Source of the DNA: Branchiostoma floridae
Taxonomy: Eukaryota; Chordata; Leptocardii; Amphioxiformes; Branchiostomatidae
DNA: 64,000 bases
Assembly: GCF_000003815.2 (NCBI RefSeq)
Contig: NC_049988.1
Coordinates: 1,395,703-1,459,702, forward strand
Direction of reading: 5' to 3'
Position numbers and translations under genes: made by a program. Below are positions 2,520 to 56,920 of the stretch, in pieces. The notes below the pieces were generated by a model. The model did no database searches and had not been told where the DNA came from. It saw nothing but the letters and a program-made list of their open reading frames with translations. Each line of letters opens with the position of its first letter. The stretch's first letter is position 1.

Positions 2520-5500
2520 GACACCGGTAACCAGCATATGTGTCTGGACTTGGGTGTAATATCTGTGCCCTGTCTTTAGCTTACAATCCTTATCTAAACA
2601 GTAGTTGGCATCTGATAGACACAGATCTGCAGCAGGATAGATGTCCCTGTACTTGTATGGGCACTTGATCTCAATCACAGTTCTTCCATGGCATGAACAC
2701 TGTCTCATCCCATCAGGAGATGCACCTATATATACAACAGTAATGTTCAAATTAGTGGCAAAGTTTCTGATATTTCAAACATGAACATAATGTACTTACT
2801 TTTGATACTTGCCAAATGCTGCAAATGGCACATATTCACTTGGTACGAATACAGTGCAATTGTTAAAACAAGTACATGTATTTCATTGTTACATCAACAA
2901 AATCATAAGTCAATTAGACATTGTGTAGTTGGTACTCAATTACATGTACTATACTTCATAAGTTTGAAGTAAGAGCCAAAATTAGCTATACCTATGAAGG
3001 GAAAATCCTTGTAGAGAATGAGCCCCACTTCCTCCAATTTCACATCCTTGCAGATGCACAAGGTAGCTTCCAGGTACTGTTGCCTTGCCTTCTCCTCCTG
3101 TTTCATCCCCCATTGTATAGCTGGAACCTGAAAGTGAAATTCCCTATTTAGAATTTCTGACATAGAAAGCACAAATGAATTACATCTCTAATATGACACT
3201 ATCTCGCATTGACTGAACATTTAGACTGTCACACTTTGCAGAAATATTTAGACTCCTGGTATTGTTTAAATCCAAATAAAGATCAGAGCTACACTTGCTC
3301 TGGGATTATTATGGTACATGTTCCAATATACAGGGTAATGTTGTCTCTTTGTGTGCCTTAATTACCTACGAAAAATGGCTTCCTGCAAGTGTACACTGTA
3401 CTAGTTTTCAGATAACTCACTTGGCTCAAATCCTTGCAGTCATATTGCATGACCTTCCGTACTGCAGTGGTGGGGTTTGATGCATGAAGGACATCATGCA
3501 TGGATGTAGAAGTCACACGACCCTTGCGTTGCTGACGCCATAAAGCAGACTTGGACTGCCCCACTGTAGCTTTGTTGAGGTTTGTGATTTGCTCGGGGTT
3601 GCACCGAACATCCTCAAGGATGCTGTCTACACTAACACTAGTAACAGGGACTTTGGCTGGATGACAAGACCTGTATACCACAGGGGGAAGCGTCTCTGTG
3701 TTGACATCTGACTCATCTTCTGATGCTGTGTCTGTGTCCTCCTCCTCTTTAATGACAGCACTGGCAGTGGGACACAGCTTCCTCAGTTGTGAGAAAGCAG
3801 AAGCGGCCTCTTCTTCACTGAGTGGTGGCACATCACACTGCGGCTTCCGGCGCGCCTTCTTGATCTGGACTCCATGTTTAGGGTGCGAAAAGTCCATGTC
3901 CTCAGCCCTTTGTGGATCAACCTGAAAGAAATAATCCACAAAATGAATTATCAATAATATATGTGAGAAAAAGCATTATACAGTGGCCATGTCAGATATT
4001 ACACTTTACAAAGAGGAACATCTTAGCCTGCAGTCCAACCTTGTTGTGCTTTAGTTCGCTCCCAAAGGTCGCTACCCCATGGCATTGACGGGGTAGCCAC
4101 CGTTGGGAGTGGACTAAAGCACAACAAGGCTGGACTCCAGGCTAGGAACATCTACTATATTGCTGTAAATCTATAGTGTAGTGCTATATATTGTGAATTG
4201 GATACATGTAAATGCCACATGATTTTGTAGAAGCAAAGAAATCCATTCATTAATGTAAGTTATAACAGTCTACTTAGGCAAAAAAATTGTAGACATTGAA
4301 AAAAATTCTACTCAATTATAATGCCCAAATATGAACAGACCTTATCTTTGTAATATTTGTTCCACACGGCCTTTCTGCTGGTGCATGACGTCCGTTTTTC
4401 CTGAAGAGACCTGGAGGCCTCCACTGCGAACAGCAGTGCAGCCACATGGCTGCAGACCTCTCCCAATCTACATTGAAATATAACAAAAAATGAGTATACA
4501 TTATAGGTACTATAGTCGGGAGCAATTTTAGAGTTAATGGTAAAAGGAACGGATAAGTTGGCCAGCTTCACAGTACAATGAAAGATTTGCCTTATCTTCT
4601 CATTATGGAAGTCTCTGTGATATTTGAATATTTCTACTATATACACATTTCTTTTAGCATTATCTACATCTACATGATGATATGTGTTAGTATACTCACT
4701 CTCAGGAACTGTTGATAACTCCAAATTACCTAGAAAACGAAACACATCAACAAGTAAAACCTGCAACAAGAACATCAACAAGAAGAAATGCATTTGCAAC
4801 AGGTACAAATACAACTGGAAACCATCAAGCACAAGAACATGAACCAAGGAAAAAAATTAAGACAGTTATCTTGCCACATACAAACTGCATGGTCGCTCCT
4901 CCCTGGAAATATACGGAGGAACATTTACAGGTGAGTACTAGTTTGACTTTCAATATTTCTAAAACTGTTTCTTGCCATGGACCTCATCTGACGAGAACAC
5001 TGTTAGATAAAAATGTGACTTTTTGGATATGATGGTCAATGCAGTTATATTACCTACCCTGCCATACAAGTGCAGTGAGCTGCCATGACATAACCCTCTT
5101 TTTTGGTCAAACACACCCATGGGTTGTGAGGAGTCTCTGTTACTCTCTGTCCTGAAACACAAATGTAACAGAAAAAAAAGATAATACAGTAAATATAAAA
5201 ACGTATCTGACAGTTAAATACTAATCACGCATCTCATTCTTCATCTTCAAGAGTTCTCACTACAGGTACATGTAAGTAGAAATATTGTTCCAATGCACTC
5301 CAACACCCACCTGGCACAACCTTGGCCTTAAGGAAGCAGACCTTCACATTTTTTCCAATAGGGTGGTACCTGCACTCCCTCACATGGCCACTTATAAAGA
5401 GATTGTACGCCTCCAGGGATTTATAGGCTTTCATGGCTTCTCCGTTAAACGGACCTGGAGCCTCGATTAGGTAGGTGTAGATGCACCCATAGTCCGTATC

Positions 5501-33000: not shown

Positions 33001-36000
33001 TAACAAACATTAATATGCATGTTTGACCCCACCTTTACCCACGGCCACAAAGCTAAGAAATAAATCTCTATCATAGTCTATGACAGTTTAGGGTTAATTG
33101 ACCTGTTCTTCTACTCTCATACCACAAAACTGTCAATACCTGGTGCTGCCAGACTGGCCAGGTAAGGATGCAGCAGGGGGGAGACAGGGTGGGTGTCATC
33201 GTGCTCATCCTCTGCTCCACTGTCAGGGTCACTGGGCTGGTTACTATGACGATGAGAATGCTCCGAAGACTTGGACGGAGTAAGGTGCTCCTTTTTCCTG
33301 AAGCACATCCATGTGAAAACATATTATTTGTTTAGTAAGTATCTCTAGCAACCAAGATATGCTCAAATTTTCAATTAAGAACACCCTATATTTCATAGTG
33401 TTGATTTAGGCGGAAAGCGTAAATGAAATAATTTACTGCGCATGAGCCATGACCTATGCCCTCGGGCTCACGTGATTCATCCTGTCTCCCATGTAAAGCA
33501 GTCCGAGAGGACGTAGATCGCAGAGTTAACTTTTATGCAACTTTTTGTGCAAGTTTACGCGATTCGACATGCCAAAACGGGCCAAAAAATGTCCCGGGTG
33601 CGGGCAAGACAACTCCCTTCACCCCAACGGCAGAGGTAACAAGCAGTGTAAGGGGATCAGCCAGCCTGTCCACTCTGACACGGAGTCTGTAGAGACCACG
33701 CCGCCGGCGGGCGGCAAGGTCAAAGCCACCGCAGATCTGGAGAGGCGAAAAGCCGAGTTACAAGAGCAGCTTACGCAAGCCCGTTTGGAGAAGGAAGTCG
33801 CCGAGTTGGAGGAAGAGCTCCAGAAGGCACGCTGCAGCACAGAACCCGCCAAAGAGACCGATCCTACTCTTCCAAAGCCGACGGAGCTGCACAAGACAGA
33901 CCCCGCGCACACGAGTTTGTTGGGCCCCGGCGATATCACGTTACAGCAGTTACGTGACAACAGTCCTCTGCAGGCGCAGGTGACCGCAAAGTATCCAGAT
34001 CTTATCGGCTCTCGGAAGAAGACAGAAGGCAAGACCCTCTCCCCTGAGGCTTTCGTGTACAGTTTCGAGTCAGCAGAACCGAAAAAGTATGACGAGCTCA
34101 CGATGGAGGAGTTTTTAGTTGGAAGCATGGGCTTGTTACAAACAGCCGTCGCCTCCATGCCACAGTGGGAATTGGCGGGAAGGCTGTCTATCCTCCAATG
34201 CGCCTGTACGAAGTTGGCTAGATACAAGTGGCAAGTCGTGAGGAGCTTTCACGCAGCAGCGTTGCGGGAGGCGTTACGAAAACCGGGCTCCTGGTCGGCG
34301 GACTGGACCGACTTAAAAGAGATGTACTTTGATGCGGACCCAACACGTCTCAAGCCTTCTAGTGAAGCGACCAGTCAGGCACCCGCCGAAAAACCAAAGG
34401 CGCCTAAGTTTTGCTGGGCCTTCAACGAGAATGACTGCAGCGTCTCGTCCTGCGGGTTTGAGCATGCCTGTTCCTTCTGCTGGAAAAGACTGAACAGAAA
34501 ATACAAGCATTCTGAGACCGATTGTGAAAGGAAGAAGACAGATGCAAAGCGGTCTACCGGCGCCCAAGCCGCCGGGAGCACGGCCTGACAAACTCCCGGA
34601 CAAGCAAGCGCGGGAATCGGTAGCGTCACCGATTCAGTAGACGCGCAACACACTGTGAGTAGTGTCTTTGTTGGTGCCGATATCTTTGCCTCCCGAGAGG
34701 TTTCTGTTCCTGTTAGTTTTCGGGTTTCGCATAAAACCCGCAGTATTCATGTTGACGACCTTCCTCCGACGGAAGGCAGTGCAATGTTGCACATTCAGGA
34801 TGGTACGAGTTCATGTGACTTTGCTTCTCGTGACGATGACAGGGGTGAGGAGATGGACTCAACTGCTGCGACAAAAGCAGGTGCTGTTTTGCACAATAGG
34901 GACAGTATGTCTGAACTTGGTATCGATGGTAGTTTGCCGGCTTCGCAGAAAAACCGGAGTGATTATGTAGACTTATTTGCTTCAATAGAAGACGGTGCAG
35001 CCTTCCACCTTCCGGAAGGTACAAGTACATGTGCCTTCAACTCTCGTGATGATAATTATGGGGGAGGCTTCAGTGAAGTTTACTTTGACCTGCCCACTTC
35101 TACTGGCAGCACTCAGGCGCCGCACTTTCCGGACAGTGGTTCATGGCCTTCGACATTCGGCGATCGTGGGTCGTATATCTCGGAGATCGGGTTACAAGAT
35201 TTCCACAGAAGCAGCAATGTCAGCAGTTTCAAGACTGACATCGTAGTAATGTGTGACAATGAAGCCGCTGTAACGGTGTTGAACTCCGGTCTACAGTCGC
35301 CCTTGCAGCTGCTGGACTCCGAGGTTGACCAGGCCAAGAAGTCAGCCTTCGCAGCAGGCACCTACAGCGATTTCCGAACCCAGTGGAGAGCGTTCCTGTT
35401 ATTCTGCGAGTTTTTCGGACTTCCTGCAATTCCTACAGACTCTAAGACACTCACCAGGTTCGCGCAGTTCCTATCCCGCTCGCTGAAGAGCCCGAACAGT
35501 GTCCAGCTTTATGTTCATGGAGCGCGAACGCTGCAGCGCTTCCACGGCTTTGAGCCCCCACCAGCAGGCGGCTTCGAGCTAAAACTAGTCATTAATTCCA
35601 TCCGCAGGTCCTCCTCTCATGTGCCGCAACAAAAGCTCCCAATCACTCCAGCCATCTTGCTACGCATCCGGGAAGAGTTGGACTTGACGAGACCTCTGCA
35701 CGCGACGCTGTGGGCCGCCTTCTGTGTAGCGTTTTTCTCCTTACTCCGTAAGTCCAATCTGGTTCCAAAATCGCAGTCCTCCTTCGACCCAGCCAAACGT
35801 CTGACACGCCGGGCCATCCAAGTCTCCGGGGACTGTGTAGTGCTTCGTGTCACGTGGTCTAAGACCATACAATTCCGGCAAAAGGTGCTGCTACTTCCTC
35901 TACCAGAGCTGACGGGACATCCTCTGTGCCCGAAACACGCGTACCTTCACATGTGTAACATGATCCGGGCCCCCCTCGATGCACCTGCCTTTCTTGTACC

Positions 36001-39000
36001 CAGCACCGGCGGACACATGACACCCTAGTCAAACATCTGAAGACGCTCCTCTACGCGGTAGGCTTACCTCCAAGCAGCTATTCCGGCCACAGCTTTCGGC
36101 GTGGGCGGTGCGACCTACGCCTGGCATTGCGGGGCGGACCCGCAAGTGCTGAAGCTGCTGGGTGACTGGTCTTCGGACGCTTTCCAGGCTTACCTCGACT
36201 GCACCTTCGACCAGAGATATGAGTTCGCGCAGCTGCTCGCCGGCAAAATAAAGAGTGGTATCCTAGCTATATAGACACTTAGTTCTCTACACACTCCACT
36301 CTACCGCAGACTCTCGATAGCTCTACTCACAGAATTAGTCTGTGCGGTACCATTGTATAGTCATGTTCAGCCCAGCACGGCTCATGTACCTTATTGTGAG
36401 TGAGAGTATCCACAATTGTACGCAAGCCTAGGCAGCCGTTGTGCCATTATATGGACGTTACTGGTTAAAGTATAGGTTTAGGCGATTCTAGTTCACCCTT
36501 TCAGCCCGCAGCAGCATTGTGTTTTGTTCAGCTGCAGTCGAACCTCAGTGCACATGCCACGTCTTGCCTATGTAGCTACAGTTGGGCACGTCAACTTGTT
36601 AATGATATACGTAGATTACGTCCCAGTTAGGGTCATATCGGCTTCCCAATGTCAGGTTCAGCCTGAGTTATAATTGTTCATGTTCGGCCTGAATTGCTTA
36701 CACGATGTCAAGCCTAGCCGGGTTATTAATGTTCAGTTTAGAAAGAATCGTTTACATGCATTAGAAGCGCTGTAGACAGTGCTACGATCTTGGTTAGTGT
36801 GCGTGGCCAGTGGTTTTGTATCACGTCACTGCATTGTTCCTTAGCTACTCAGTTCTGCACCCACTCAGCACGTTCACTGCACTCTCCCCTCCCCGGCAAT
36901 TCCCTGCGGGCTTGGTCCTGGTGGTTGGTCATTCTCCTGAACATTAAAAGTTACATTGATTCCAAGCCCACACAGGTGTTATTGCCTTCCTGAGCGAGAG
37001 TGCAGTTAATTGTGTTGATTTAGGCGGAAAGCGTAAATGAAATAATTTACTGCGCATGAGCCATGACCTATGCCCTTGGGCTCACGTGATTCATCCTGTC
37101 TCCCATGTAAAGCAGTCCGAGAGGACGTAGATCGCAGAGTTAACTTTTATGCACCCCCCCACCCACCTCGTGGTTGGTCATTCTCCTGAACATTAAAAGT
37201 TACATTGATTCCAAGCCCACACAGGTGTTATTGCCTTCCTGAGCGAGAGTGCAGTTAATTCTGTAACAACATTCCTCTTTGCTACACCTAATACAAATGT
37301 ATCAAAATCAGGTTTCAACATTGTTGAGACTGTAAAATCAGCATAGATATGTTAAGTTGAAGCACAGCAAAACTATTGAGAGTAAGTCTGTTTGCTACTG
37401 TGTTGCACCCTGAATATTAATGTTATTTGAGTTGCCCTTTTAGTTTGTTCTATGCCAAACAACTTCTCCAATACATCAAATGGAATGTAACACTTCTAGC
37501 AACACTCTGCTTAAAATGCATTTCTAACAGACTCTATCAAAAATGGTATCCTACTTGAGGTTATTGGAGGACTCCTTGAGCTTGACAATCTCATCCCTGA
37601 TGCTGTCCCTGTCTGTCAGCAGACTGTCCACCTTCTGCTGCAGGGCCTGCTGGCTATCATTGGTCTGCTGGAGCTGGGCTCGGATGAAGTCAAAATCACC
37701 CTGGATACACACAAGGAAATCAACGTCAATATAATCAAGTTTCAATGGATGGATGTTTTCTATTATCAAAATAGGGTTAGTTATATAGTGTGTTAGTTAG
37801 GCCCGATCTAGACACATTTTTTCCCGATATAGCCGCATCTGCCGATATCGGCGGGGCCGATATCGGGGCGCATCTAAACACATTTTGCAAATGGCAGCGC
37901 GGGATATCCGCTCGTAGCGCGGAACACCCGCGGCGCGGAACATTCGTGACCCCTTTTGACCTCTGGTGACACATCCCGCGGATTTCAAAATGGCAGGAAT
38001 GCCGGTAGCTTTTCCACTCGTTATCAATCAGGTAATGTTCTTTCTGTAAGGATGGGCCATGCAAGGGTAGGGCGCAGGAGGCGATTGAGATACAGGGAGA
38101 GACGACAGCGGCCGGCTAGAGTGAACGCAGCGTTCTTTCTCGCTGCCCTGATTGTGGCGGAGGGTGGAAAGCCTGTACACCGGGGTGTACCAAGGAATCC
38201 CGCGTCCTTTTGGGATCTCCTCCTCCGACCATACACGCGGTTTCTGCATGGCTCCATGTGCAACGGAAGCGCCCAGCTTTTCCCTCCGCCATCTTGCTCT
38301 CCCGCGCTAATACCAGTATGCCGCTGTTCCCGCGTTATATGCTAATGAGCCCGCGTTAACTGTAGTTATATGCTAATGAGCTTCGCGAATTCGCAGAGCA
38401 TCTACACGCGCGCGAAACATGTCGGGGACCCCTGCTAAGGTATCGGTAAGGTATCGTTAGATGGCTTACGAATGGTCCGATTGTGGAGAAATTTTCCCGA
38501 TATAGTAATGGCGATATAGTAGTTGCATCTAGACACTGAAAAAAAGCTGTCGGCGAGAGGTAGTAGGCTCGCCGATATCGGGAAAAACTGTGTGTAGATC
38601 GCGCCTTAGCAGCCATGTGTTCTTCCTGTAACAAAGGAACTACTCTACGTCGGTATTCATGTCATTTCAGAAGGCTAAGCGACAATCACAAATCTTACTT
38701 GAAAATATTTTCAATGAAAAATTAATGCCTTTCCTTAAAAATCAAATGTATTCTTCACAACTCATTCTCTTTTCAATCATCCCTCCTTTTTAATCTAGGG
38801 GGACAGTTTTTCCTTCCTACTTAATGAACACTTGGAGAAGTTCCAAGGATAAGCTGGTGACCCTGACCTTGAGTGAGTGGAACATCTCGCTGAGCTCCAG
38901 CACCTGCTGCCTGAACTCACTCTTGCTGTTATCCAGCCGCTCCTCGATCTGTTTGTCATCTATCTGGATACGGCCCAGCTCCTGCATGGCCCCTTCAAAC

Positions 39001-56139: not shown

Positions 56140-56658
56140 CTATACTGTACAGCTCTTTGTGTAGAGTTTCAATGCACGGGGCATGAAAGACTGGGCGTGT
56201 CTATTCGTCCTACTGAAAGAGGTGGTGGGTTGTTTAGAACGTTGCAGGCTGTAGTTGCTCTGTGTGGTAGATATTAACTCATGTAGAGGACTGCCATCAT
56301 CTTTCAGTATGTTTTGAATGGTTCTTAATGTTGTCTGGTCTCGCCTCATGGACAGGGAAGGCAAGGACTCTACATGTATTCCAATGATCTTACAACAACG
56401 CTTTTGTATGCCCTCAAGCGAATGGGAAAGGTGATTAGGCAGCCCTCCCCACACTGGACTGGCATACTCTAACAAGGGACGAATAAATACCAAGTAAATG
56501 CGTGTAAGCACATCAGTTGACAGTCCAGCCTTCTTAGCTACAGTTAAGTAGTACATTCTTTTCATTGTCATCATTGCCCTGGTTACAATACACTGAAAGC
56601 TCTCTTTAATAACATAGGCCCGGTTCACACGAGGAAAATTCTCTGTAAACCGATACAA
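56140..56658 (-). pseudogene. non-LTR retrotransposon, 3' end of the reverse transcriptase ORF
   Basis: 173-codon frame with the post-catalytic (thumb/C-terminal) region of CR1/L2/jockey-type reverse transcriptases: MKRMYYLTVAKKAGL, LTRIYLVFIRPLLEYASPVW, EGIQKRCCKIIGI. The catalytic YxDD part is absent, as in the usual 5'-truncated copy. The downstream sequence on the same strand includes a 15-bp unit (TTGTTGTAAATCAGA) repeated at 55866-55905, possibly the element's 3' tail. Confidence 0.75.
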
Positions 56659-56920
56659 TGAGGTTTACCTACCCCTTATGTGTGAAGAGCAACTCCAGTG
56701 CCGCGATGGCATTCTCGAGGTCGGCCAGGTCCAATATAGATATGGAAAAAGACTGATGCTTCTCCGTGCGCTACGAGGACCGGAGAAAGATTACAAGAGG
56801 TAGATTTTCTGTAGCGTGAGTTATATGATTCTGAAAGGTTCATATTTGGGACATTCACTTCGGGTCGAAATGCTTTAAATACATGAAATCGTCGTTCATG
56901 ACACCATAGCAACCATAGCT

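Follow-up and report, generated by a model that had tools for sequence, protein, structure and literature searches.

The accessible sections of PMC2632668 describe an amphioxus Ngaro-like retrotransposon, of the DIRS order, that lies near the VCBP2/5 cluster and carries three open reading frames (ORFs). Here we analyse an element at positions 33398-37260 of a 64,000-nucleotide stretch of the Branchiostoma floridae genome (NCBI RefSeq assembly GCF_000003815.2, contig NC_049988.1, positions 1,395,703 to 1,459,702; this whole stretch is the window, and positions are counted from its first letter). The likeness lies in the split direct repeats, ordered A1-ORFs-B1-A2-B2, and in the gag, reverse transcriptase (RT)/RNase H and tyrosine recombinase (YR) ORFs that full-length relatives of the window element carry. 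The window copy itself differs in having no RT and a broken YR; with the RT/RNase H ORF and an intact YR both absent, it is a derivative of a Ngaro-like family and not a complete member. It very probably belongs to a short, non-autonomous lineage that arose by deletion from a Ngaro-like split-direct-repeat retrotransposon family, kept gag and has been mobilised in trans.

Short copies with common lesions

In the 513-Mb assembly (431 contigs; the window is C10:1395703-1459702), matches number 27 for the A repeat and 58 for the gag protein, and 20 stretches around A matches were extracted for comparison. The short structure is present in four copies: the window copy, which is therefore not unique, and siblings at C14:7866-7870 kb, C8:18181-18185 kb and C16:1142-1146 kb. 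When 30 bases spanning the junction of the RT deletion were searched with up to 3 mismatches, exactly 4 genome sites were found, those of the short copies, and a reversed control gave 0. All six pairs of short copies are 99.49-99.87% identical. Compared over 1.5 kb, the flanking sequences of the three complete copies are unrelated; a single weak flank match (105 nt at 70%) links C14 to C16. The three complete copies start with GTGTTG and finish with TTAATT, and 6 of 7 copies have AT at bases -3,-2 ahead of the element, in line with a putative short recombination core. The fourth copy, on C16 (L013), sits at a further site, flanked by 55-bp direct duplicates, and is missing its first 78 bp and roughly 72 bp at its other end; because of the lost ends and the duplicates, it was probably placed by break repair and not by YR. 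Two other loci (L017 and L018) are rearranged fragments whose start, by its 9-bp gap in gag, resembles that of short-type copies.

The features of the window copy are:

33398..33539, + strand: A1 repeat, 142 bp
33569..34585, + strand: ORF1, gag-like, open, 339 amino acids from the first ATG
34026..34034, + strand: position of the gag 5' splice-site motif (slash at the putative splice junction), AAG/GCAAGA in the window copy and all 4 short copies
34586..34588, + strand: lone TGA separating gag from ORF2, same frame on both sides
34589..35239, + strand: ORF2 N-terminal region, which lies upstream of RT in full-length relatives
35239..35240, + strand: junction of the in-frame 1,410-bp deletion (RT loss), with 2-bp microhomology AT
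35240..35288, + strand: RNase H remnant, MCDNEAAVTVLNSG
35288..35289, + strand: junction of the 251-bp deletion, with GT..AG among 7 equivalent placements, the right edge then falling on the YR 3' splice-site motif
35289..36271, + strand: YR, broken by the common 16-bp deletion at 36011/36012, with a private 1-bp insertion near 36103
36371..36389, + strand: 19-bp segment of the 3' untranslated region, carried by the short copies and missing from comparable full-length copies
36921..37011, + strand: B1 repeat, 91 bp
37012..37153, + strand: A2 repeat, 142 bp, with one mismatch to A1 at 37077 that is private to the window copy
37170..37260, + strand: B2 repeat and element end, 91 bp, identical to B1

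These coordinates bear out the exact A1-ORFs-B1-A2-B2 layout, the repeat lengths and the intact ORF1 of a first-pass annotation of the window. Inspected by eye, the ORF1 product has Cys/His clusters resembling zinc fingers close to each end, and the protein is 100% identical in all four short copies. The same annotation credited the element with the catalytic motifs of a recombinase and with having kept its integration parts. The motifs R1 (LLRKSNL), HSFRRG and LGDW..AYLD are indeed in the DNA, but in none of the 4 short copies do they share a single open frame; of the integration parts, the repeats are kept and the recombinase is frameshifted throughout. The window copy has the R motif and, past a stop, LGDW..AYLD in frame 0, with HSFRRG in frame 2; in the three siblings HSFRRG and LGDW..AYLD lie in one frame and the R motif in another.

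The lesions found in all four short copies are the 9-bp gag gap, the 1,410-bp in-frame deletion, the 251-bp deletion, the 16-bp YR deletion and the 19-bp insertion near 36371. The comparison used 4 full-length copies for the 9-bp, 1,410-bp and 251-bp gaps and 3 for the 16-bp and 19-bp changes, where the C8 full-length copy, which has unrelated sequence there, was left out. The 1-bp insertion near 36103 occurs only in the window copy. We rejected the 1,410-bp deletion as an intron, with none of its 3 placements being GT..AG. Site 34138 is polymorphic in short and full-length copies alike, and a 1-bp gap in A2 of the C16 short copy is common with one or more full-length elements. RNA may have been exchanged between short and full-length elements, a reading that just these two features favour.

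Full-length relatives carry the missing parts

Relatives carrying an RT, which the first-pass annotation had proposed to look for, are present in the genome. Four have gag (355 amino acids stop to stop) and a 783-amino-acid ORF2: C14:7162801 (F_C14), C3:19738848 (F_C3), C8:13676864 (F_C8) and C13:17817550 (F_C13). YR is open over 351 amino acids in F_C14 and F_C13, lacks 26 residues in F_C3, and is broken off in F_C8, in which other sequence, followed by N, takes the place of the 3' part. F_C13 runs into N at its 3' end, and B2 of F_C14 is truncated. Identity to the short copies is 96.9-97.4% over alignable columns for F_C14, F_C3 and F_C13, and 96.7% over the first 1.85 kb for F_C8. An identical private 1-bp gap is found in A1 and A2 of F_C14, and another in both A1 and A2 of F_C3 and also in A1 of F_C13; the paired gaps of F_C14 and F_C3 are as expected from joint regeneration of the repeats. 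F_C3 (L015) sits in a tandem repeat array, and its two flanks match each other many times.

The family ORF2 gives matches to RVT_1 at residues 387-472 (E 7.8e-4) and to RT_RNaseH at residues 664-705 (E 0.042), and that of a related family, L043, matches RVT_1 at E 1.8e-5, all below the Pfam curated cut-off; a YLDD box is visible by eye. The RVT_1 match region is entirely inside the block lost from the short copies. In the PDB, the best match to ORF2 was an RT/RNase H at E 0.23, which is not significant, and YR gave no match; the F_C14 and F_C13 YR reached Pfam Phage_integrase only at E 0.15. No methyltransferase domain, a lack that sets Ngaro apart from DIRS/PAT, was matched in Pfam at E<=10 by the gag, ORF2 or YR of L014, which is weak evidence.

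In a search with the ORF2 protein (60 matches listed; 58 of 247 first candidates scored), other families among the matches listed begin at residue 224 at the earliest, and the short copies cover only residues 1-218 (C16: 1-128). The part of ORF2 before residue ~220 is thus specific to the family of the window element. Since the short copies match only residues 1-218, the segment 34589-35239 is the ORF2 N-terminal region, and a shrunken RT or RNase H remnant at 34589-35235 is ruled out. The first-pass annotation was right that there is no RT in this segment (34589-36025 gave no Pfam match at E<=10 and nothing in the PDB), but the RNase H remnant that it placed there lies at 35240-35288, and the one deletion that it assumed is two separate ones, of 1,410 and 251 bp.

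Selection and timing

We compared short and full-length copies by the ratio of nonsynonymous to synonymous substitution rates (dN/dS). For YR upstream of the 16-bp deletion the ratio was 0.05-0.14 in three of four comparisons and 0.39 against C3; for gag it was 0.39-0.59 and for the ORF2 N-terminal region 0.83-0.93. From the low YR values we infer that YR was constrained for most of the time since the short and full-length elements split, and that it broke late. Among the short-copy pairs compared, synonymous/nonsynonymous differences numbered 2/0 in gag, 0/4 in YR and 0/2 in the ORF2 N-terminal region, a pattern that is no more than suggestive.

Origin of the short lineage

At three sites whose flanks are unrelated, the RT loss, the 251-bp loss and the YR frameshift occur jointly in copies with full A1..B2 ends. 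Because complete copies bearing these lesions stand at unrelated sites, movement after the loss of RT and YR is the natural reading. Dispersed copies, common inactivating lesions, intact ends and helper relatives in the genome are together what distinguishes a trans-mobilised derivative, and the suggestion that the element is a deletion derivative open to mobilisation in trans is well supported. A single ancestor would have carried the common lesions. Its RNA would be packaged in Gag particles (its own Gag, that of a relative, or both) and reverse-transcribed by the RT/RNase H of full-length relatives, and the circular complementary DNA (cDNA) would be inserted by the YR of those relatives, which would recognise the same A/B ends. 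That the short element uses its own Gag is something we infer.

Several points weigh against mobilisation in trans. It is read from the copies, and no event has been observed. The complete C14 and C8 siblings differ at 5 sites, so there may have been few events. Some moves could predate the YR frameshift if this was later spread by gene conversion. The C16 copy looks to have been placed by break repair, and the substitution counts within the lineage are too few as proof of selection on gag. The break-repair signs at C16 and the polymorphism at 34138 could also be taken to mean that duplication of DNA or gene conversion, and not retrotransposition in trans, multiplied the short copies, which we consider improbable given three of them with identical, complete ends at sites whose flanks are unrelated. 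The idea that RT was never there, the element being either a primitive short lineage or a gag-bearing DNA transposon of Crypton type, can be set aside almost with certainty: nothing beyond the present anatomy favours it, the element retains an RNase H remnant and the N-terminal region of ORF2, its breakpoints are sharp, and the idea is refuted by the full-length relatives, to three of which the rest of the element is ~97% identical over alignable columns. Given the same identity, the separate short lineage considered in the earlier annotation is not supported for this element, if it is taken to be old. A Crypton origin is ruled out by the split repeats and the RNase H remnant.

Splice-like signals and a predicted Gag-YR fusion

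In all 8 family copies, and also in L043, a lone TGA separates gag from an ORF2 that continues its frame; the stop context in L043 is TGA CTA. This context is known for leakiness. Read-through is the likely route from gag to ORF2, judging by the arrangement.

In 9 of 14 copies, F_C14 included, there is no Met ahead of the YR anchor (one of the 14, L051, is mis-anchored, here and in the shuffles below). We scanned 23 sequences of the host genome for the best 3' splice-site-like sequence before YR, leaving out F_C3 and F_C8; the L050 site is outside the scan range and was counted with its family. A pyrimidine tract followed by AG stands before YR, at a distance to the YR codons of 2 modulo 3, in 14 of 16 clusters despite differing residues; the misses are L054 and L063. 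The clusters share ancestry and are not independent trials, and the counts are given without a p-value. Splice scores are log-odds of our own making, based on general consensus values, and not those of a published scorer. On this scale the acceptor sites of 14 sequences have a median of 8.4 (lowest 2.3, L054), and 69 upstream control windows have a median of 5.5, with 7 reaching 8.4 and phases divided 18, 26, 25. In L061 the top site is another one, at 6.6, and the phase-2 site scores 6.3. Against same-base shuffles, just 4 of the 14 sequences have a best 3' score that comes out below 0.05 (values from 0.004 to 0.516), and single scores are mostly not significant. The argument for an acceptor rests on position, phase and the upstream controls.

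A candidate donor lies far upstream, within gag. The top-scoring donor in both F_C14 and L043 is AAG/GTAAGA, in phase 1, and L066 (CAG/GTAAGA), L067 (AAG/GTAAGC), L068 (AAG/GTAAGA) and L065 (GAG/GTAAGC) also have phase-1 gag donors. A strong phase-1 donor is thus present in 6 of 6 non-short copies (5 families, L043 and L068 being one), in 5 of them at the same place, 8 to 12 residues ahead of a conserved block (LSPE.FV). In the sixth, L065, whose gag is 27% identical, the matching FVF follows the donor by 26 residues, which puts this donor ~18 residues upstream of its position in the others. The whole stretch was searched for F_C14 and L043, and only 121-161 nt near the expected place, not blind, for the other four gags. 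F_C14 has a second strong donor (score 6.8) at element nt 1935. Genome-wide, the gag donor site of the window element's family occurs 8 times, with GT (AAG/GTAAGA) in the 4 full-length-type copies and GC in the 4 short ones. GC donors can function, so splicing in the short lineage is perhaps weakened and not lost.

The donor and acceptor pair predicts a spliced Gag-YR fusion. In F_C14 the donor is at element nt 639 and the acceptor at element nt 3561. The stretch between the two sites measures 2,921 nt in both F_C14 and F_C13, and 3,245 nt in L043. After the predicted join, 332 more codons would be open in each of F_C14 and F_C13, and 331 in L043; in F_C8 the frame is shut after 65 codons. Donor and acceptor motifs, both in phase 1, recur in L014, L043 and L045-L068.

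Nature of the 251-bp gap

The 251-bp gap has seven equivalent placements, one of which is an exact GT..AG that ends on the inferred YR acceptor, shares its phase (phase 1) and leaves ORF2 and YR in a common frame. We lean towards the gap being a spliced RNA copied back into DNA. An ordinary deletion by microhomology or template jumping is a serious possibility, somewhat below an even chance. A 6-bp imperfect microhomology (TCnGGT) underlies the seven placements, the donor score is weak (2.4), and the tract may be a hot spot, since an unrelated 78-bp deletion in F_C3 begins at it and an older RT-less family, L041, breaks within ~10 nt of it. What speaks against a plain deletion is that the exact GT..AG placement coincides with an independently inferred 3' splice site, phase-matched and in frame.

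This older RT-less family comprises L041 (C245:37000-41000) and L042 (C1:19870500-19874500), ~71% identical to the full-length element and 95% identical to each other over 2.95 kb. Both contain the end of gag, the ORF2 N-terminal region and then the start of YR, most of which is lost. Matches at C8:1838-1839 kb and further ones on C245 have similar spacing (only some of these were read). Broken near the same acceptor, L041 and L042 could be a second, independent instance of a spliced origin; we do not count L041 as a spliced copy because it retains a pyrimidine-rich stretch beside the junction.

Taken as a whole, the signals suggest a tentative scheme, which we place close to, and just under, an even chance. 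The Ngaro-like elements here would make YR as a spliced Gag(1-156)-YR fusion and RT by Gag-TGA-Pol read-through; the short lineage would be a parasite with its donor drifted to GC, founded on a cDNA of mis-spliced RNA; and splicing would generate RT-poor, gag-keeping derivatives. The displaced donor of L065 and the loss of the acceptor AG from F_C3, removed by its 78-bp deletion, weigh against this scheme. Translation of YR by -1 frameshifting or re-initiation, with the splice-like signals a by-product of codon use, is favoured by the 43-nt overlap of ORF2 and YR in F_C14 and by the 5 of 14 copies (the mis-anchored L051 among them) whose YR frame has a Met ahead of the anchor. We regard this as unlikely: the Met is missing from the remaining copies, the acceptor phase is constant across clusters that differ in residues, and a strong donor of matching phase stands far off in gag.

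Surroundings of the element and possible solo repeats

Two open minus-strand stretches flank the window element, at 37554-37706 and 33117-33299, one of them coiled-coil-like; Pfam gave only weak matches for that one and none for the other. The element may be positioned antisense within a host-gene intron. Further along the window, a minus-strand ORF at 56140-56664 resembles, by eye, the C-terminal part of the RT of a retrotransposon without long terminal repeats (LTRs). Elsewhere in the genome, nine loci (L022-L030) carry an A unit 78-85% identical to that of the window, followed within ~300 bp by a recognisable B in 7 of 9; 17 of their 36 pairs are 90-97% identical. They are either solo-repeat remnants or a tiny non-autonomous family.

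Comparison with known systems

The accessible sections of PMC2632668 mention relics elsewhere in the genome, and in them there is neither an RT-less sibling family nor a spliced YR. Neither a spliced Ngaro YR nor an RT-less, gag-keeping Ngaro lineage was reported among the matches listed in the full-text literature, or in the accessible parts of PMC2632668, PMC4157794, PMC9210276, PMC8547959, PMC6681497, PMC3266345 and PMC12477816, and earlier Ngaro descriptions could contain splicing. The available text of PMC8547959 describes Ngaro type 2b variants in Cafeteria burkhardae that are likewise recurrent deletion variants of a Ngaro family; these lose ORF1 (gag-like), whereas the window lineage keeps gag and loses RT and YR. 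SIRE, the truncated form of VIPER, is also a non-autonomous derivative of a YR retroelement but, according to the available text of PMC6681497, retains only the ends and a short region of its own, unlike the window element with its intact gag.

The short element itself is a non-autonomous variant, and more surprising than this is the conserved splice pair. Few non-autonomous partners of YR retrotransposons seem to have been described, and the way in which the third ORF is expressed is a practical question; here the pair of complete element and parasite is young and in few copies, so that the lesions can be read singly. Were the splice signals in use, the Ngaro recombinase would be coupled to a part of Gag, giving a direct reason why gag might influence the integration site, and splicing errors would be a route by which parasites of the element are created.

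Gag-only non-autonomous LTR elements such as TR-GAG keep gag and borrow pol; they have LTR ends and a DDE integrase where the window element has split repeats and YR. Retroviruses combine spliced and read-through gene expression, and the scheme predicted here is alike in using stop-codon read-through for Pol and splicing for a downstream ORF. It differs in that the recombinase would be made by splicing as a fusion with part of Gag.

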